IMG/VR virus record: IMGVR_UViG_3300035698_008003 | Coordinates: 1-24,400 of that record | Strand: one strand, 5' to 3' | DNA: 24,400 nucleotides | DNA from: a virus | Shown: one piece after another, positions 2,917 to 23,878 of the stretch | Numbering within the stretch: position 1 is the first letter of the stretch | Layout: every line of letters starts with the position of its first letter | The notes under the pieces: model-generated | What the model saw: only the letters and a program-made list of their open reading frames with translations | Databases searched by the model: none | Told to the model about the DNA's origin: nothing | Made by a program: the position numbers and the translations under genes

Positions 2917-3144
2917 TCATTGCTTATCCTTTAATATATGCTCATACCATCTACAGGAATCAATATGTAATATAGTGTTTTTGTTCGACTTAAAAAACTT
3001 AAAAAAATTAGGTGAGCAGACAAAATTAACATTTCCACTTTTTTTATCAAAAACATGATCGTGGCTAGACATTTTTTTAATTAAGTGTCGGCAAAGATTG
3101 CCAAATGCCCATCGTTTATCTTTTGTTACCCAATTAATTTTCAT
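2917..3144 (-). pseudogene. truncated paralogue of the adjacent glycosyltransferase N-terminus
   Basis: 75 residues. The first 50 align with the start of the neighbouring glycosyltransferase. Both open 'MKINW' and share 'AFxNLCRH', a K-M-S/P-S-H/D-H pattern and 'F(V/I)CSPNFF'. At DNA level a 16-base stretch encoding the SPNFF region is identical. After that the frame runs only about 23 more residues and ends, so the whole sugar-donor domain is missing. It lacks a clear ribosome binding site and lies just after a likely terminator behind the capsid gene. Either a decayed tandem duplicate or a small protein reusing the acceptor-side domain. Confidence 0.6.
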
Positions 3145-9408: not shown

Positions 9409-10792
9409 CTACTCTTGAGATAACTACTACCTCTTTCTTTGCTAACAGCCTGTATCGCGCTTCATCTGCAATATGGTCTTCTGCATTTGTATCTATATCA
9501 TCTGTCTTTTTGCTATCCCGTGTAAGCGTTGGAATAGTCCGGCAGAACTGGCGACAGTTGTTAAATATGTAAAGCCCGGCTTCTTCTTTACTGCTTGAGC
9601 CTTTAAACATCTTACGCATAATTTCCCAGCCGTTAGCTCTACTCCCGGGCGACTTGTTAGCGTGAAGCCATGTTACGCCGACGCTTGCCATGTCGTCTGC
9701 TATACAGTTTCCGTTTTCTGTTGTGTATATAGAGGAGTCAGCAGCCCCAGGCTTCACATTTAGACCCATTTTAGTTTCGATTGTTTTGATCTTGTCCGCC
9801 ACTTGGACTGCTAACTCTTTAGTTCCCTCGTTTGGTGTACCATTCCAGCCGTATAGCTCGTTAATACGGTATAAGTCCCCTCTTACTGTGCTTTTTTTAC
9901 TTCCGTCTTTGAGTATTACATCTGTACCGTCCGATTCAGCCCACCAGCCGACAGAGTAAGGCTTTGAACTGCCCCAGTCAAATGATCGGTCAATATACCA
10001 GCTACTTGGAATAGCAAACGGCTCTATTTCGTGAATCACTTTATTATACAGGTCGTCAAACATACCGCCAGCGACTATATCCCAGTCGCCGTTAAGCATT
10101 GCTCGGACTAGCGCGGGGTTGCCTAGACCCTTAAGCATGTTTTCATACTCATCATAGTTTATGCTTGGGTTATCCTTGAGCATTGCAGGGATATACTGCC
10201 TTAACATTTTCCCATCACTCGGCTTTGTCTGCCATATAGCAAGAGCTGGCGCAGGATCAACAAACGCCGACTTTACCCAGTTGTGTCCTATGTTTCCCGG
10301 ATTGCTGCCTGAAAGTATAAGCGGTATTTTAATATTATCTGGTATATCAAGCCCCGCCACACGACAACGCCCCCTTAAGTAGACATACTGAAAGCGCGTA
10401 AAATGTGTTAGCTCATCAAAGAGCAATACGTTTATTTCCGCACCTTGATATTTGTATACGTCCTTTTCATACTGACAATGGCATAAATGAATCTTTGAAT
10501 TATTCCAGAAGCTTATCTTTGTCGGCGAGTTGGTTATCTTAGCTTGCTTATTCTCTATCATGGTTTCTAACATGCCATAATAACCGTTGACACCCTCGAC
10601 ATGATTCTTATACAAGTCTTCTGATAGTCGCCGGAATAGATAGACCTGGAGATTTGCAATTTGACAGCACAAGAGAATAGATACTACGCGAATAAGGTGG
10701 GATTTTCCACCACCAGCCGCACCACCGTACAATATCTCATTAGCCCTTGAGAGCAGTACATCACCCTGCTTTTTGTGTAGCTTAAATTCCAT
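9392..10792 (-). CDS. terL: terminase large subunit
   Basis: 466 residues. Walker A is 'GGAAGGGKS' (23-31) and Walker B is 'NVLLFDELTHF' (121-131), with Asp126 and catalytic Glu127. The coupling region 'LSGSNPGNIGHNW' starts at 160. The nuclease (RNase H-like) domain follows, with 'DRSFDWGSSKPYSVGWW' (Asp272 the likely first metal ligand) and 'KPGAADSSIY' (Asp352). The protein pumps DNA into the head at the portal and cuts the concatemer. Its ATG overlaps the small terminase stop (TAATG). Length and motifs are complete, so it should be functional. Confidence 0.93.
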   Translation of the reverse strand: MEFKLHKKQGDVLLSRANEILYGGAAGGGKSHLIRVVSILLCCQIANLQVYLFRRLSEDLYKNHVEGVNGYYGMLETMIENKQAKITNSPTKISFWNNSKIHLCHCQYEKDVYKYQGAEINVLLFDELTHFTRFQYVYLRGRCRVAGLDIPDNIKIPLILSGSNPGNIGHNWVKSAFVDPAPALAIWQTKPSDGKMLRQYIPAMLKDNPSINYDEYENMLKGLGNPALVRAMLNGDWDIVAGGMFDDLYNKVIHEIEPFAIPSSWYIDRSFDWGSSKPYSVGWWAESDGTDVILKDGSKKSTVRGDLYRINELYGWNGTPNEGTKELAVQVADKIKTIETKMGLNVKPGAADSSIYTTENGNCIADDMASVGVTWLHANKSPGSRANGWEIMRKMFKGSSSKEEAGLYIFNNCRQFCRTIPTLTRDSKKTDDIDTNAEDHIADEARYRLLAKKEVVVISRVGGLRG

Positions 10793-13252: not shown

Positions 13253-13519
13253 TTAGCCAGAGCCATCGCCATCGCCATAGCCATAGCCAGAGCCAGAGCC
13301 AGAGCCATCGCCAGAGCCATAGCCATAGCCATCGCCATCGCCAGAGCCATCGCCAGAGCCATCGCCATAGCCAGAGCCAGAGCCAGAGCCATAGCCATCG
13401 CCAGAGCCATCGCCATCGCCATAGCCATAGCCAGAGCCAGAGCCAGAGCCATCGCCATAGCCAGAGCCAGAGCCAGAGCCATCGCCATCCATTAAGAGTT
13501 TATCTTTAATTTTGTTCAT
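13253..13519 (-). CDS. Gly-X dipeptide-repeat protein (X = Asp, Ser or Tyr)
   Basis: 88 residues from the ATG at 13519, overlapping the previous stop by 14 bases; a second in-frame ATG at 13492 lies directly before the repeats. After a short basic head ('MNKIKDKLLMD') the whole protein is 39 consecutive Gly-X or X-Gly units in which X is Ser 17 times, Asp 13 and Tyr 9. Every Gly codon is GGC and X is only TCT, GAT or TAT, so the DNA is a hexamer array. This frame is preferred because it follows the upstream gene and ends in tandem stops just before a terminator. Such a chain would be disordered, acidic and aromatic, perhaps sticky or phase-separating. Function unknown. Confidence 0.6.
   Translation of the reverse strand: MNKIKDKLLMDGDGSGSGSGYGDGSGSGSGYGYGDGDGSGDGYGSGSGSGYGDGSGDGSGDGDGYGYGSGDGSGSGSGYGYGDGDGSG
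13256..13489. repeat. 39-copy imperfect hexanucleotide tandem array
   Basis: On the plus strand the tract is gcc followed by atc, aga or ata, 39 times without interruption (234 bases). A higher-order unit of eight hexamers (48 bases; X order S-S-S-Y-Y-D-D-S in the encoded protein) occurs twice, and the four-hexamer block S-S-S-Y four times, showing expansion by unequal exchange or slippage. Confidence 0.95.
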
Positions 13520-14150: not shown

Positions 14151-14594
14151 ATGAAAAACACTAAGTTCAAAACAGTAAAAGAAGGTGAAATGCTCCGTAT
14201 TATCGCACTTAAAGATTTTGGAATTGTAAGCAAGGGCGACAAGGGCGGTTTAATTGAGAAAAAAGAAAACCTATCTATTTACGGCAGTGCTTGGGTTTAC
14301 GGCGATGCTCGGGTTTCCGGCGATGCTCGGGTTTCCGGCGATGCTCAGGTTTACAAGGTTTCTAATATTTCTGGATTAAAATACAATGTACCAGCTTATA
14401 ATGGTTTTATACAAATAGGTTGCGAACTACATACATTTGATGAATGGGCTAAATTCACCAACAAAGAAATACTTGCAATGGACGGTAAGGACGGCTTAAA
14501 GTGGTGGAAAGAGTATAAACCTGTTATCACTCCGATTGCTAAATTGCATATCAAAAAGGTTAAAAAAATATCAAAGGCAAAGGAAATAAAATGA
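14151..14594 (+). CDS. hexapeptide-repeat (beta-helix) early phage protein
   Basis: 147 residues, AGGAGG seven bases before ATG. A head 'KTVKEGEMLRIIALKDFG' and 'GDKGGLIEKKENLSIYGSAW' lead into hexapeptide-type repeats 'VYGDARVSGDARVSGDAQVY' (about 50-69), as in left-handed beta-helix proteins. A C-terminal domain follows with 'IQIGCELHTFDEWAKF' and 'GLKWWKEYKPVI', a combination recurrent in phage and prophage proteins. The repeat block is short compared with relatives that carry many copies. The 18-base repeat units are nearly identical in DNA. Function unknown; first gene of the rightward transcript. Confidence 0.75.
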   Translation: MKNTKFKTVKEGEMLRIIALKDFGIVSKGDKGGLIEKKENLSIYGSAWVYGDARVSGDARVSGDAQVYKVSNISGLKYNVPAYNGFIQIGCELHTFDEWAKFTNKEILAMDGKDGLKWWKEYKPVITPIAKLHIKKVKKISKAKEIK

Positions 14595-17198: not shown

Positions 17199-17315
17199 AT
17201 GAAAGAGCAAAAAGTAGTAATGGTTGGATATAAGGGATTTGATTATAATTTTAAATGCCTAAAAAAGCAGTATAAGGAAAATACAGTTTTCAGCTGTTGT
17301 TATGTGCGCAGGTAA
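17199..17315 (+). pseudogene. truncated DUF7666-like gene
   Basis: 38 residues after an AAAGGAG site. 'VVMVGYKGFDYNFKCLKKQY' then 'KENTVF' resembles the first 25-30 residues of the DUF7666 family, whose members typically read GYKGFNKDLTCRGFQYEVGKxYE and continue for well over 100 residues. Here the frame stops after 'SCCYVRR'. It is either a remnant or a very short derivative. Confidence 0.5.
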
Positions 17316-17322
17316 CAACTCA

Positions 17323-17487
17323 ATGGCTAAAGCAAAAAAAGGCTCATGGATAACTCTAGCAGAGTGGAAAGATATTAACGGGAAATATATTCCAGTTTGT
17401 GTTAAAACGGCAAAAGTAACAGGCAGAAAAATAAAAGCAGATACTTGGTATATGCTACAAGATGGCAAATTTATAGAAACAAAATAA
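17323..17487 (+). CDS. hypothetical 54-residue protein
   Basis: From the ATG at 17323 with a distant AGG upstream; an in-frame ATG at 17302 would overlap the preceding gene and has no site. 'MAKAKKGSWITLAEWKDING' then 'PVCVKTAKVTGRKIKADTWY' and 'MLQDGKF': a small beta-barrel-like pattern with basic residues. No family recognised; the start is uncertain. Confidence 0.5.
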   Translation: MAKAKKGSWITLAEWKDINGKYIPVCVKTAKVTGRKIKADTWYMLQDGKFIETK

Positions 17488-17509
17488 CAACAAATAAGGA
17501 GCTTGCAAA

Positions 17510-17797
17510 ATGAAAGACATAGACGTATCGATAATCATCAACGACGCTCTTGTTGAACAGCTTAACATTAAGCTAAAGGATATAAAGGATTATTCAACGC
17601 TGGCTAGACTTGGCGCGGATAGTCTGGATTTAGTAGAACTGGACATATTAATCGAAGAAAGTATTGATAAGAAAATAGTTATCGACGATTATTTAGTAAC
17701 AGGCAGAACGACGGTTAAAGAACTAACGGCTTATGTAAAAAACTTAACAGAGGTGGATGTATTGAATTTGAATTTATGCCAACAAAGAAAACAATAA
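17510..17797 (+). CDS. phage-encoded acyl carrier protein
   Basis: 95 residues with GGAG before the ATG. Residues 12-70 follow the AcpP plan helix by helix. The 'DALVEQLNIKLKDI' helix I comes first, then 'LARLGADSLDLVEL' (31-44) with the phosphopantetheine attachment serine Ser38 in DSLD and recognition helix II, then acidic 'LIEESIDKKIVIDD' and 'TTVKELTAYVKNL' as the last helix. Host AcpP is about 78 residues; here a 20-residue tail ('TEVDVLNLNLCQQRKQ') is added. To be active it would need a host holo-ACP synthase. No acyltransferase or ketosynthase is in the window, so it may tap or compete with host lipid synthesis, or act as a docking partner. Confidence 0.85.
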   Translation: MKDIDVSIIINDALVEQLNIKLKDIKDYSTLARLGADSLDLVELDILIEESIDKKIVIDDYLVTGRTTVKELTAYVKNLTEVDVLNLNLCQQRKQ

Positions 17798-17814: not shown

Positions 17815-18174
17815 ATGTTTAAATCATTCAACACTAGACTTATTGAAAATCTCGAAAAACAAATTGAAAAACAGTCCGCGAGAATTAGGGATTTAGAACG
17901 AACTGAAAGCACAAAAGTAAATAGTATTGCAACCCTGCAACAACAAGCTGGCTGTGGAATTGAGCATGAAACAGAGCGAGATATTACGGATTCAGCACCA
18001 TATCCCTGGCTCGAACGCGAACACTTTGAAACCTGCACCATCTGTGGAAAAGTATTGCGCAAGTTCGACACCAAGCTGGAAGCCGACGAGCGCGAAGCGG
18101 AGATACTGCAAGATGTAGCCGACAAGGCAAAGCGGGCGGTTAGAGAAGCAAAAGCAAAAAACAAGGAGGCGTAA
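17815..18174 (+). CDS. hypothetical coiled-coil protein with a zinc half-knuckle
   Basis: 119 residues from the ATG at 17815, eight bases after AAAAGGA; an in-frame ATG at 17776 inside the acyl carrier gene lacks a close site. An N-terminal coiled coil ('FNTRLIENLEKQIEKQSARI') leads to 'HFETCTICGKVLRKFDTK' with a CxxC. A long charged C-terminal helix rich in Glu, Ala, Lys and Arg ends the protein. Its start is only 18 bases after the acyl carrier stop, so the two are co-translated. Role unknown. Confidence 0.6.
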   Translation: MFKSFNTRLIENLEKQIEKQSARIRDLERTESTKVNSIATLQQQAGCGIEHETERDITDSAPYPWLEREHFETCTICGKVLRKFDTKLEADEREAEILQDVADKAKRAVREAKAKNKEA

Positions 18175-18175
18175 A

Positions 18176-18787
18176 ATGAAAGAGCTATTAGCAATTCAAA
18201 GTAAACTCGTAGTACCTAAAAATCAGTTTAATAGTCACGGTGGTTATAAGTTTAGAAGCTGTGAAGATATACTGGAGGCGATTAAACCATTACTGAGCGA
18301 ACACGATTGTTTTGTGGTCATTAATGACGACATAATAGAATCCGGCGGTTTTGTGTTCATAAAAGCAACTGTTGAAATGACAAACAGCGAGGGTAAAACT
18401 ATTACCTCAACCGCATTCGCCCGCCATGCAGATGTACAAAAAGGCATGCAGGCGGCGCAGATTACTGGCAGCACGTCAAGCTATGCCCGCAAGTATGCGT
18501 TAAATGGCTTGTTCTGCATTGACGACACAAAAGATGCCGACGCTACTAATAAGCACGACAAAACCCCTGCAAGGCAACATGCGACAGTTAGCGATGAAAA
18601 GAACACCGTAATATCAAAAGCCAAGCAAAATGCTTTCATAACTGCTGGTAAAAATAGCGGGTATTCAAACGAGCAAATCAAAGAGGCTTTATTCAACGCT
18701 GGATTTAAGACTTCCACCGATATTACAAATGATAAATTTCAACAATTAATAGATAGTTTGAAAAATAAAACGCTAAAGGTTCAGTAA
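18176..18787 (+). CDS. erf: ERF-family single-strand annealing recombinase
   Basis: 203 residues; AAGGAGG before ATG. The ERF core occupies about 1-123, with 'NSHGGYKFRSCEDILEAIKP' (19-38), 'ITSTAFARHADVQKGMQAAQ' (76-95) and the family hallmark 'GSTSSYARKYALNGLFCIDD' (98-117). The C-terminal part is a charged linker and a small helical domain ('KQNAFITAGKNSGYSNEQI'). It anneals complementary single strands during phage recombination, using ends made by the exonuclease encoded next, whose ATG shares a base with its stop. Confidence 0.92.
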   Translation: MKELLAIQSKLVVPKNQFNSHGGYKFRSCEDILEAIKPLLSEHDCFVVINDDIIESGGFVFIKATVEMTNSEGKTITSTAFARHADVQKGMQAAQITGSTSSYARKYALNGLFCIDDTKDADATNKHDKTPARQHATVSDEKNTVISKAKQNAFITAGKNSGYSNEQIKEALFNAGFKTSTDITNDKFQQLIDSLKNKTLKVQ

Positions 18788-19581
18788 TGATTAAGAAAAA
18801 CATATCACGCAAAGAGTATATAGCTCTGCCGGGAATAAACGCTTCCAGCTTAAAGCCGTATTACGAAAGTTCACTTAACGGCAATTATGAAAGCTCTAAA
18901 AAGCGGGTTGAAACGCCAGCTATGCGATTCGGGACTGCTTGCCATTCCTTAATACTTGAGCCGGCGAAGTTTAAAGCCGGTTATGATGTACTTGAGTTAC
19001 CCATAAACGAAAAGACGGGTAAGGAGTACGGATCTGAAACCAAAAAAGCTCAAGAATATATCGCCACATTGCCGACTGATAAAAAGTATTTATCTAGCGA
19101 GGAGTTCGCAACACTAAAGCGGATTGCCACAAACTTTAATTATAACCATGTCGCTACATCAATTATTGAGGACTGCCCCGACAGAGAAATGGCGGTTACT
19201 TGGACTGATGATATTACCGGCAAAGAGTGCAAAGCGTTAATTGACTTTGTCGGCGAAAACATGGCGGGTGATTTAAAAACTGCCCGTGAGATTAAGTTTC
19301 GGAATAACGATGATGATATTGCAAAGGCTATTCGATGGGATTTGATCGGTAACAAAAACCTGTTGCAATTTGCTTTTTACTATGACGGGTTAAAGGCTAA
19401 TAACATTGACGTTGATTTTTATGTGCTATTCGCGCAGAACGGTGGAAACTGCGAAACCCTCGCCGCCATGTTAAGTGAATCATCTATTGAGTACGGGCGT
19501 TCTATGTATAATCGCGCCATGCAAAACATTCTTTCCAAAGATGATAACTATTCCGCATTTAACAAGGTGATTATGATATGA
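18787..19581 (+). CDS. PD-(D/E)XK exonuclease (RecE / DUF3799-like)
   Basis: 264 residues. 'ETPAMRFGTACHSLILEP' (42-59) is the opening box of RecB-type phage exonucleases with His53. 'PDREMAVTW' supplies Glu134. 'CKALIDFVGE' (148-157) holds Asp153 and 'GDLKTA' (161-166) gives the D-x-K core, Asp162 and Lys164. 'LLQFAFYYDGL' is the Q-x-x-x-Y motif. It degrades one strand from double-strand ends to feed ERF annealing. It overlaps the ERF stop by one base and the next start by four (ATGA). Confidence 0.88.
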   Translation: MIKKNISRKEYIALPGINASSLKPYYESSLNGNYESSKKRVETPAMRFGTACHSLILEPAKFKAGYDVLELPINEKTGKEYGSETKKAQEYIATLPTDKKYLSSEEFATLKRIATNFNYNHVATSIIEDCPDREMAVTWTDDITGKECKALIDFVGENMAGDLKTAREIKFRNNDDDIAKAIRWDLIGNKNLLQFAFYYDGLKANNIDVDFYVLFAQNGGNCETLAAMLSESSIEYGRSMYNRAMQNILSKDDNYSAFNKVIMI

Positions 19582-20024: not shown

Positions 20025-20483
20025 ATGTCCTACGATAAAGCAATTATAATCGGTAACATAACTAGACAGCCAGAACTCAAGCATACACCGTCAGGCGTTA
20101 TAGTATGTGAGTTTGGTATCGCAGTAAACAAGAAACGCAAGGGCGAGAATAGGGCGTGTTTCCTTGACGTTGTGTCATTTAACAAAACCGCTGAATTTGT
20201 GCAAAAGTATTTTTGCAAAGGTTCTGAGATTCTCATAGAGGGTGAACATGACTATGAAACTTGGGATGATAAAGACACAGGCAAAAAGCGGTCAAAGATT
20301 AAGATTATAGCTAACCAAGTTAATTTTGTTGGCAAGCGTGAAGATAACCCGCAAGCCACACAGCAACCGCAACCAGCGCAAGAACCGCAATCGCAAGACA
20401 AGAGCTATCCTGGAGAACACGACCAGAGATTCCCAGTTAATCAAGAGTCGGAATTAGACCCTAAAGATGATATCCCATTTTGA
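20025..20483 (+). CDS. ssb: single-stranded DNA-binding protein
   Basis: 152 residues; AAGGAG upstream. OB-fold start 'AIIIGNITRQPELKHTPSG' (6-24) and 'CEFGIAVNKK' (28-37), then 'FLDVVSFNKTAEFVQKYFCK' and 'GSEILIEGEHDYETW', the canonical bacterial SSB pattern. A Gln/Pro-rich disordered tail ends in 'DPKDDIPF', the conserved acidic tip that recruits partner enzymes. It coats single strands in replication and ERF-driven recombination. Confidence 0.95.
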   Translation: MSYDKAIIIGNITRQPELKHTPSGVIVCEFGIAVNKKRKGENRACFLDVVSFNKTAEFVQKYFCKGSEILIEGEHDYETWDDKDTGKKRSKIKIIANQVNFVGKREDNPQATQQPQPAQEPQSQDKSYPGEHDQRFPVNQESELDPKDDIPF

Positions 20484-21237: not shown

Positions 21238-22011
21238 ATGGCTAGACCAACAAAAGCAACAGTTGAATATTTCCCTTTGGATTGCTCTTTTTCGGATAGC
21301 ATGAAAATAATAGAAGTTAAATTTGGTAATGACGGATTTGCTTTCTGGGTAAAATTATTACAAAAGCTAGGGCGTACAGAAAACCACTTTATAGATTGCC
21401 GGAATATATCCAAGTGGAAGTTATTGTCAGCAGAAATGCTAGTTGATGAGGATAAATGTAAACAGATACTCAATGAACTATCTGAATTAGAATGTATAGA
21501 TACTGAATTGTGGCAGCATAAAATAATATTTTCTCAAAAGTTTGTTGATGGACTAGCCGATGTTTATAAACGGCGTAATGTTGGTTTACCTAAAAAGGCT
21601 GATATATGTAAACAGTTATCTATTAGCAAGAGGGTTAATGCAAACCATAAGCCAGTAGATGTTAGCAATAACCCACAAAGTAAAGTAAACTATACTAAAG
21701 TAGATAAGAGTAAAGTAATAGAACCGCCAACACTTGAAGAATTTACTGACTATTGCCAAGATAAATTAAAAGATTATGAATTAGACCCTGAAAACATATA
21801 TTATTTTTATTCTGATAATGATTGGTTTGATAGTAATGGCAAAAAGGTAAAGAACTGGAAAACAAAGATAAGGTCTGTTTGGTGTAAAAATAAAAAGAAA
21901 ATTATAGAATCGGAGCTAGATAAACAAATTGCAGGTATGCCTTCACAGTTTGATGCCGACTTTGTGGAAAATTCAAATGCAGACATGCCGGAGATAGCCA
22001 ATGAAAATTGA
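21238..22011 (+). CDS. replisome organiser, Lin1244/Lin1753-type (DUF4373)
   Basis: 257 residues, AAGGAG before ATG. The N-terminal domain has the family winged-helix pattern: 'EYFPLDCSFSDSMKIIEVKF' (10-29), 'GNDGFAFWVKLLQKLG' (30-45), 'LSAEMLVDEDKCKQILNELS' and 'HKIIFSQKFVDGL'. A low-complexity linker follows. The C-terminal DnaD-type helical module reads 'PTLEEFTDYCQDKL', 'YYFYSDNDWFDSNGKKVKNW' and 'KTKIRSVW'. These proteins bind the phage origin and load the helicase. The helicase gene begins inside its last codons. Confidence 0.82.
   Translation: MARPTKATVEYFPLDCSFSDSMKIIEVKFGNDGFAFWVKLLQKLGRTENHFIDCRNISKWKLLSAEMLVDEDKCKQILNELSELECIDTELWQHKIIFSQKFVDGLADVYKRRNVGLPKKADICKQLSISKRVNANHKPVDVSNNPQSKVNYTKVDKSKVIEPPTLEEFTDYCQDKLKDYELDPENIYYFYSDNDWFDSNGKKVKNWKTKIRSVWCKNKKKIIESELDKQIAGMPSQFDADFVENSNADMPEIANEN
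21681..21717 (+). repeat. TAAAGTA iteron-like triplet within the initiator gene
   Basis: TAAAGTA at 21681-21687, 21696-21702 and 21711-21717, exactly 15 bases apart, in the AT-rich linker-coding part. The protein reads S-K-V-N-Y / T-K-V-D-K / S-K-V-I-E. Origins of some phages lie inside the initiator gene, so these could be initiator-binding sites, or simply a coding repeat. Confidence 0.4.
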
Positions 22012-23878
22012 GGAACTAAAACAGCAGATAGGTATATCCGCTAAAGATATTATTGCTACCGGCATGGGGCTTGAGAAACGAGGCACAGCTTATGACTGCC
22101 CTTATAAAGACCACAAGAAAGGTAAAACTATATCGGCTCAATGGTATAACGACGGATTACATTTCAAGTGCCACGATTGCAATAGACTTTTCGACATTAG
22201 CGACTATGCAGCACAACGGGGGGAGCGCATGCAAATATTGCACGACCTTGCAAACGTAGCATATAAACCATTTGAGTTTAAGCCTATTAAGCCAGTAACA
22301 AAAGAAAAATCAGAGAATGGAATTAATTATTTAGTTAATCGCGGAATATCAAAAGAAACCATAAAAGAATATCATATAACCTGTAGTAATCAATGGATTT
22401 GTTTTAATTATTGTCTGCCTGACAATGGCGGGCTTGTTAAAATCAAACAGCGCATAATAGGTGATTGCGAAAATGGAGATAACAAATATACAGCTCCAGC
22501 GGGGGGGCAGAATATTCTTTACGGTATGCACTTACTAAAGGCTCAAAAGCTACTTGCTATATGCGAGGGCGAGATAGATGCATTATCGTTGCGAGAGTGC
22601 GCTAAGTTAGCCGAAAAAGATAAAAATATTATATGCTCCAGTATTCCAAGCGGATCTAAAAGCTTTGGGTGGATAGAAACTTGCAAAAATTGGCTTGATT
22701 CATTTAGCGGAATAATTATAATTCCAGATTCAGACGATTCGGGAAGCGAGTTTTTAGAAAAATCAATAGAGTTACTATCTGAATATAACTTATTAAAAAT
22801 AGACCTGCCGACAAATGACGTAAACGAATATTTATGCAGTCCAGATTGTAACCCTGCCGAAATATTTAATTACATGAAGCAAATAGTCCCAGAGATAAAA
22901 GGAATTAAAAACAGCGCAGAAGTCGGCAAGCGTAAAAAGATAAAATCTATTGCAACTGGATATTTAACGCAGGATTACAACGATTCAGGTTATCGCATGG
23001 GTTGCTTATCGCTTTACACGGGCAGACGTGGACACGGGAAAACGACATATACACGCCAGGGGCTAATAAGCATAGCCAAGCAAAAGGAAAAGTGTTTTAT
23101 GTTTACTGGCGAAACTACGATTGAAAACGAAAAAAATAAACTTGCGAGAATGTGTGCTGAAAAAACCGACATTGAAACCTCGTTAAATATTGGCGGCAGA
23201 ACTGAATACAACGCAGGGGATAGCGCCTTAAATTATTTTAACAAGGTTTATGGCAAATATATATTGCTTTCAGATTGTGAAACTATGGCAGAAAACTTCC
23301 CAGAGCTTAAAAAAAGCAAGGTGATGTTGTTTGATAATCTGCTAATGGAAATGGAAAAGCTGGCTAAATATTTTTGCGTTAAAGTTTTCATTCTTGACAA
23401 TCTTATGGTATTTTGCGCCAATCAGGGACAGGGTAAATTCAGCAAGCAAGAAGATATAATTGCAAAGTTAAAGGAGTTTGTCAATAAGAACAACGTTCAT
23501 TGCTGTTTAATAGCTCACCCAAAAAGCGGAGATGGACACCAAAAAGTATCGGGAGCAATGGAATTAGAAAATAGCGCCGATTCAATATTCCGCTATGTTA
23601 GAATTGAAGATGTAAACCAGGACGGAATGGCTAAAAGATTGCCGGAACATATCAAATCAAGGGTTTCAGCTATGCTATTAACCGAAAAGGTTAGAGATGA
23701 TGGGACTAGCATTATATCATTTTTAGAGTGGGACGCTGCAAGAGGGGCAGTTTACGATTTAAACACGATGCACAATGCTAAAGAATACGAGAAGTTTGGA
23801 TATTGGACTAGAGCGGTAAGCAAGTTTACAGAACTAGACCAGCCGAACCGTCATAATCGCGGTGCTGGTAAACAATAA
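22001..23878 (+). CDS. TOPRIM primase-helicase (T7 gp4 / Twinkle-like)
   Basis: 625 residues. N-terminal zinc site: 'CPYKDH' (33-38) with 'CHDC' (57-60). TOPRIM core: 'ICEGEIDALSLREC' (187-200; Glu189, Asp193) and 'IIPDSDDSG' (240-248). RecA-like helicase: Walker A 'GRRGHGKTT' (341-349), 'FTGETTIENE', Walker B 'VFILDNLMVF' (462-471; Asp466), 'CCLIAHPKSG' (501-510), and 'SGAMELENSADSIFRYVR' as the DnaB-like motif 4 region. It both primes and unwinds at the phage fork. The ATG overlaps the initiator's stop and a GGAGA site lies six bases upstream. Confidence 0.93.
   Translation: MKIEELKQQIGISAKDIIATGMGLEKRGTAYDCPYKDHKKGKTISAQWYNDGLHFKCHDCNRLFDISDYAAQRGERMQILHDLANVAYKPFEFKPIKPVTKEKSENGINYLVNRGISKETIKEYHITCSNQWICFNYCLPDNGGLVKIKQRIIGDCENGDNKYTAPAGGQNILYGMHLLKAQKLLAICEGEIDALSLRECAKLAEKDKNIICSSIPSGSKSFGWIETCKNWLDSFSGIIIIPDSDDSGSEFLEKSIELLSEYNLLKIDLPTNDVNEYLCSPDCNPAEIFNYMKQIVPEIKGIKNSAEVGKRKKIKSIATGYLTQDYNDSGYRMGCLSLYTGRRGHGKTTYTRQGLISIAKQKEKCFMFTGETTIENEKNKLARMCAEKTDIETSLNIGGRTEYNAGDSALNYFNKVYGKYILLSDCETMAENFPELKKSKVMLFDNLLMEMEKLAKYFCVKVFILDNLMVFCANQGQGKFSKQEDIIAKLKEFVNKNNVHCCLIAHPKSGDGHQKVSGAMELENSADSIFRYVRIEDVNQDGMAKRLPEHIKSRVSAMLLTEKVRDDGTSIISFLEWDAARGAVYDLNTMHNAKEYEKFGYWTRAVSKFTELDQPNRHNRGAGKQ

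Follow-up and report, generated by a model that had tools for sequence, protein, structure and literature searches.

An acyl carrier protein gene in a phage early operon

The window, a stretch of 24,400 bases from an IMG/VR virus record classed as linear, contains leftward structural genes (terminase, portal, Mu F-like, and SU10-type capsid) and a rightward early operon, from ~14.1 to 23.9 kb, encoding Erf, a RecE-like nuclease, a single-strand DNA-binding protein (SSB), HNH and Lin1244-type proteins, and a primase-helicase. In this operon, an open reading frame on the plus strand (17510-17797) encodes an acyl carrier protein (ACP) of 95 aa. It starts with ATG, 8 bases downstream of a strong ribosome-binding site, AAGGAG, which can be read directly in the sequence (17495-17509, plus strand). 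The early-operon position given in the original prediction holds, as the gene lies just upstream of those coding, all on the plus strand, for the Erf single-strand annealing protein (18176-18787; Pfam ERF, 1.4e-41), the RecE/exonuclease VIII-like PDDEXK nuclease (18787-19581; PF12684, 2e-13; PHROG 412, 2.8e-29), the SSB (20025-20483; Pfam SSB, 5.9e-27), and the primase-helicase (22001-23878; PHROG 239, 1.9e-56). Sharing 24.4 kb with terminase, portal, capsid, Erf, SSB, and primase-helicase genes, the ACP is borne by a phage genome. As was also predicted, no enzyme of fatty-acid or polyketide synthesis (FAS, PKS) is encoded nearby: in the whole window we found neither these nor acyltransferase or phosphopantetheinyl transferase (PPTase) genes, and no linked fab genes, so that any modification and loading of the ACP would have to come from the host. 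Among cultured phages, compared for clues to the host, the nearest terminases were those of Acinetobacter and Pseudomonas phages (~50%), and no good match was found for the primase. Weak PRTase matches (PADLOC/Pfam, residues 22-84 / 35-81), considered as a possible link with defense, were taken as chance.

Profile searches assign the protein to the PP-binding family (Pfam PF00550, 25.2 bits against a curated cut-off of 20.8, E = 1.9e-5), with additional matches to TIGR00517 acyl_carrier of NCBIfam (E = 1.2e-7; 31.5 bits, under the equivalog cut-off of 70.45) and, over residues 10-79, to PHROG 5934 "acyl carrier protein" (E = 2e-4; PHROG has no curated cut-off). A PDB sequence search retrieved E. 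coli-type and Acinetobacter ACP structures (best E = 4.5e-6). As a control, a profile built exclusively from 79 bacterial ACPs was run on the 388 frames of the window and on 2,000 shuffles; the ACP obtained an E-value of 7.6e-15, with the runner-up frame at 0.28, and scored 49.3 bits versus 8.5 bits for the best shuffle. The ACP domain covers approximately residues 6-78, and the phosphopantetheine (PPant) serine, Ser38, is found in the motif GADSLDLVEL. In the AlphaFold2 model (pLDDT 81, pTM 0.68), which has four helices (6-18, 38-51, 60-64, and 69-92), Ser38 opens helix II. Foldseek comparison of this model with the PDB returned only ACPs from E. coli and Acinetobacter as top matches (probability 1.00, TM by target 0.75-0.81), and ~20 viral carrier proteins were recovered from BFVD. 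The AcpP layout with a DSLD serine at residue 38, first noticed by eye, is thus confirmed, and 17510-17797 encodes an ACP with a predicted four-helix fold. A C-terminal tail is also present, although it comprises ~17 residues (79-95) instead of the 20 initially counted; it may be a chance read-through to the next stop codon, since it is absent from the ACP of the related phage G052 described below.

The adjacent gene does not form a conserved pair with the ACP

Only 17 bases separate the ACP gene from the next one (17815-18174, plus strand), whose ribosome-binding site directly follows the ACP stop codon. From its alignment to a homolog and its structural model, the 119-aa product would consist of a long helix, Cys47/His51, Cys74/Cys77, and a second long helix. 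The model, of low confidence (pLDDT 69, pTM 0.33), shows two long helices and a Cys-bearing hairpin, and it had no fold match. We detected one homolog, in G052 (40199-40606; L106:199-603), with 32% identity over the alignment and with C47, H51, C74, and C77 kept; further searches for relatives recovered G052 only. This homolog begins at the same residue, which supports the start proposed at 17815. The suggestion that the two genes would recur as a pair in other phages did not survive: although both G052 and the window phage carry both genes, those of G052 are 28 kb apart, and they are therefore not a conserved unit. We also considered a programmed -1 frameshift that would fuse the ACP to the next gene, given an in-phase A_AAA_AAC at 17737 and a -1 frame open from 17719. 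We rejected it, as the operon is AT-rich and contains 23 such heptamers in phase, the RNA that follows the site is only weakly structured, and the G052 homolog, starting at the residue that matches 17815, has its own ribosome-binding site.

Relatives, distribution, and phylogeny

A tblastn search with the window ACP against 50,697 phage records gave no match even at E = 0.1, and we found no close DNA relative of the gene. Its best bacterial matches (48% identity over 66 residues) were housekeeping-type ACPs of Desulfobulbaceae, and its identity to the bacterial ACPs on our tree, where it forms a very long branch, was at most 40% over 78 columns. With the primase as query we collected three early-region relatives. 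One of them, G052 (L101; 55,017 bases), is probably a complete genome since it has a 127-base terminal repeat; its primase is 75% identical to that of the window. G052 has a second ACP of this phage group, a very divergent protein of 81 aa (DMDSLDEM; Pfam E = 1.6e-6) encoded upstream of an annealing-type gene, read as such from the sequence with no Pfam hit, and of a nuclease gene; we found no PPTase gene in G052. The two ACPs are 27-30% identical. L099, a fragment, is a nearer relative (primase 80% identical), and it has no ACP in the interval between its zinc-ribbon homolog and its annealing-type gene. The ACP is therefore an accessory gene of this phage group. The early region falls outside the records of the relatives that share virion genes (L025-L027), and none of 48 terminase-related viral records, many of which are fragments, had a PP-binding hit over the cut-off. 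The tree places the ACPs of the window and of G052 apart, but it is built on few columns, its phage branches are very long, and it is too weak to judge orthology. The starred branches nonetheless require no fewer than four changes between phage and bacterial labels, and phage ACPs taken together therefore do not form a single clean clade.

Several other traits of these genomes were observed. The terminase and virion genes of G052 are unrelated to those of the window despite the similarity of their primases, which reads as a modular swap of the entire replication half against the entire virion half. Peptide deformylase genes were found in G052 (L104, 11048-11533) and in L100 (1236-1721); in G052, a relative that also bears an ACP, the gene belongs to the early operon. 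At 17199-17487 of the window, two short ORFs resemble the two termini, N and C, of a single gene of ~300 aa, of which G052 has an intact copy (9615-10541, minus strand), with 17302-17487 matching residues 255-310 of the 312 of PHROG 4433; this pattern points to an internal deletion immediately before the ACP gene.

Conserved cofactor core and divergent partner face

In AcpP numbering, D35, S36, L37, D38, E41, E47, and E48 are all kept in the window ACP, and the serine is present in 18/18 phage ACPs compared, a partly ascertained set. For the surface comparison we used the 79 bacterial ACPs (45 distinct helix II sequences), most of them collected by peptide patterns (ADSLDLVE), which makes the invariance from D35 to E41 circular. 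By contrast, the comparison at positions 31, 43, 44, and 50 is not circular because they are outside those patterns. At these partner-contact positions, the window ACP has R31, D43, I44, and I50, whereas the bacterial proteins have D at 31 (75/79), V, I, L, or T at 43, with an acid in 0/79, M at 44 (77/79), and F at 50 (77/79). Thus, the window ACP resembles the bacterial FAS II ACP (AcpP, TIGR00517) in fold, PPant serine motif, and helix II core acids, and differs from it by D31R, V43D, M44I, F50I, a two-residue insertion before helix III, the 17-aa tail, and a net charge of -6 compared with about -15.

These differences can be read against mutants of E. coli AcpP. The substitutions V43E, M44I, and F50S, as well as 12 residues added at the C-terminus, reduce or eliminate the binding of AcpP to SpoT, MukB, FabA, and PlsX; that to SpoT is lost or weakened and that to MukB lost, in proteins that can still be used for growth (PMC3340395). 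The window ACP has a similar change at position 43, the same one at 44, a milder one at 50, and an extension of 17 aa, which together argue against simple docking on SpoT, MukB, FabA, or PlsX, although the E. coli mutation data may fail to transfer to the phage's own host.

Acyl carrier proteins in other phages

Stand-alone phage ACPs are a known kind of protein (PHROG 5934/4154), common and already described; an E. coli-type ACP query matched ~100 phage records. They recur, with no assigned role, in phages of cyanobacteria, Caulobacter, Vibrio, Flavobacteria, and others, and the literature treats them as auxiliary metabolic genes whose function is unclear (PMC5463345, PMC10152775, PMC8224337, PMC11705849). 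According to the annotated surroundings in eight cultured phages, they lie among small genes, with no FAS enzymes and no common neighbor. Members of PHROG 5934/4154 (Erythrobacter phage vB_EliS-R6L gp32, Olleya phage Harreka_1 gp68, and Vibrio phage eugene 12A10) share with the window ACP its small stand-alone form, the DSL serine, and surroundings of small genes lacking adjacent FAS partners, but the window ACP departs from them by its distant sequence, altered helix II face, and tail. Cyanophages P-HM1/P-HM2, with an ACP plus an ACP synthase (gene clusters T4-GC457 and T4-GC500), also carry the ACP without adjacent FAS genes. P-HM2, in contrast with the window record, in which we found none, encodes its own 4'-phosphopantetheinyl transferase, the only such record among 17 sampled; this combination had been noted before (PMC3037559) and suggests an importance of the holo form for at least one phage. 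The roseophage acpP (Rhodobacteraceae prophages) is likewise phage-borne but part of a fabG-acpP-fabF block as in bacteria, unlike the window ACP, alone in its early operon. To this picture we add two related phages with an ACP in the early operon, the accessory nature of the gene in their group, the rejection of its pairing with 17815-18174, and a specific prediction on partner binding.

In two viral contigs (L009, 4971-6310, and L023, 4645-5429), ACP genes are directly followed, judging by eye, by an apparent ribonucleotide reductase small subunit (L009) and an apparent JAB/MPN-type metalloprotease (L023). The BFVD matches include carrier-protein-like models from Salmonella phage ViI and Delftia phage PhiW-14 (E1XTD1 and C9DG88). 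Both phages are known for hypermodified thymine, and phage ACPs may be connected with the modification of bases.

Possible roles during infection

We favor, at about an even chance, a host-activated holo-ACP working as a specialized or rival carrier with few partners. The ACP would be made early, together with the replication and recombination genes, and its Ser38 would be charged by the host phosphopantetheinyl transferase (AcpS), the likeliest candidate because the core residues are kept and no transferase was found in the phage record. Once presumably loaded with acyl groups, the holo-protein would function in the infected cell as an acyl carrier, either accessory or competing, with a putative benefit to the phage. 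The altered helix II face and the tail probably narrow its partners to a subset of the host ACP-dependent enzymes. Alternatively, its partner may be a single phage or host protein not yet recognized; in either case, it would not be a general AcpP substitute. Against this reading, the phage could use its ACP unmodified, as MukB is stimulated by apo- and holo-AcpP alike (PMC8602292). The coexistence of an intact cofactor core and an altered partner face allows a direct test of whether such proteins supply lipid synthesis, inhibit it, or have been redirected to another partner.

A less probable explanation, to which we nonetheless give some weight, is that a host-type ACP was taken up as an auxiliary metabolic gene and simply contributes to the host's type II fatty-acid synthesis, supplying or tuning, for instance, membrane lipids during infection. 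This is the published reading for the roseophage acpP and for Alteromonas R22Y, and it agrees with the intact helix II acids and with the growth supported by AcpP mutants altered in helix II (PMC3340395). It fits poorly, however, with the lack of any FAS gene found in the window, as opposed to the fab genes flanking the roseophage acpP, with the length of the branch and the low identity to bacterial ACPs, and with D31R, V43D, M44I, F50I, and a tail, all unusual for a FAS ACP.

The original prediction also proposed docking on host proteins, and the ACP could upset the stringent response or chromosome organization by binding a regulator or chromosome protein of the SpoT, MukB, or IscS type, acyl carriage being secondary. 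AcpP does bind SpoT, MukB, IscS, and SecA (PMC8602292), and the gene sits among recombination and replication genes. Nevertheless, we consider such docking unlikely: in its E. coli style, it is disfavored by V43D, M44I, F50I, and the extension, since comparable changes in AcpP abolish its binding to MukB and abolish or impair that to SpoT, and neither SpoT nor MukB is universal.

Equally doubtful is a two-protein module in which the ACP would work with a phage partner, either the helical, Cys-rich neighbor of 119 aa or the annealing/recombination protein. The close spacing of the two genes, the homologs of both in G052, and the position of the ACP upstream of an annealing-type protein in both phages (in G052, as inferred from sequence) would accord with it, but the partner homolog is distant from the ACP in G052, the annealing-type proteins of the two phages have no detectable homology, and the genes downstream of the ACPs in the eight cultured phages look unrelated in annotation and length. 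We regard as similarly improbable a repurposed holo carrier that has lost its general host partners and serves a dedicated partner in phage replication or recombination as a switchable thiol-bearing docking subunit, not as a fatty-acid carrier. Finally, a moron-like passenger in transit, decaying or newly captured and with little effect on infection, would suit the absence of the ACP at the matching place in L099, its low GC content (34%, against 38-44% in its neighbors), and a tree with multiple separate phage acquisitions, but is very improbable given that an open frame, a strong ribosome-binding site, and the full PPant core survive great divergence and that G052 also keeps an early-operon ACP.

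Other features of the window

A tandem array of ~39 copies of a 6-base unit, with a 30-base super-unit (13254-13488), is open in several frames on both strands (Ala/Met-rich or Gly/Ser/Asp-rich). An 18-base tandem repeat (14278-14354) in the ORF 14151-14594 encodes a short beta-solenoid-like stretch (YdcK-type repeat). Among the virion genes, a glycosyltransferase group 1 gene (1562-2869) has a distant homolog in G052, and a short ORF before it resembles its N-terminus, as in a partial duplication (1562-2869 and 2917-3144).
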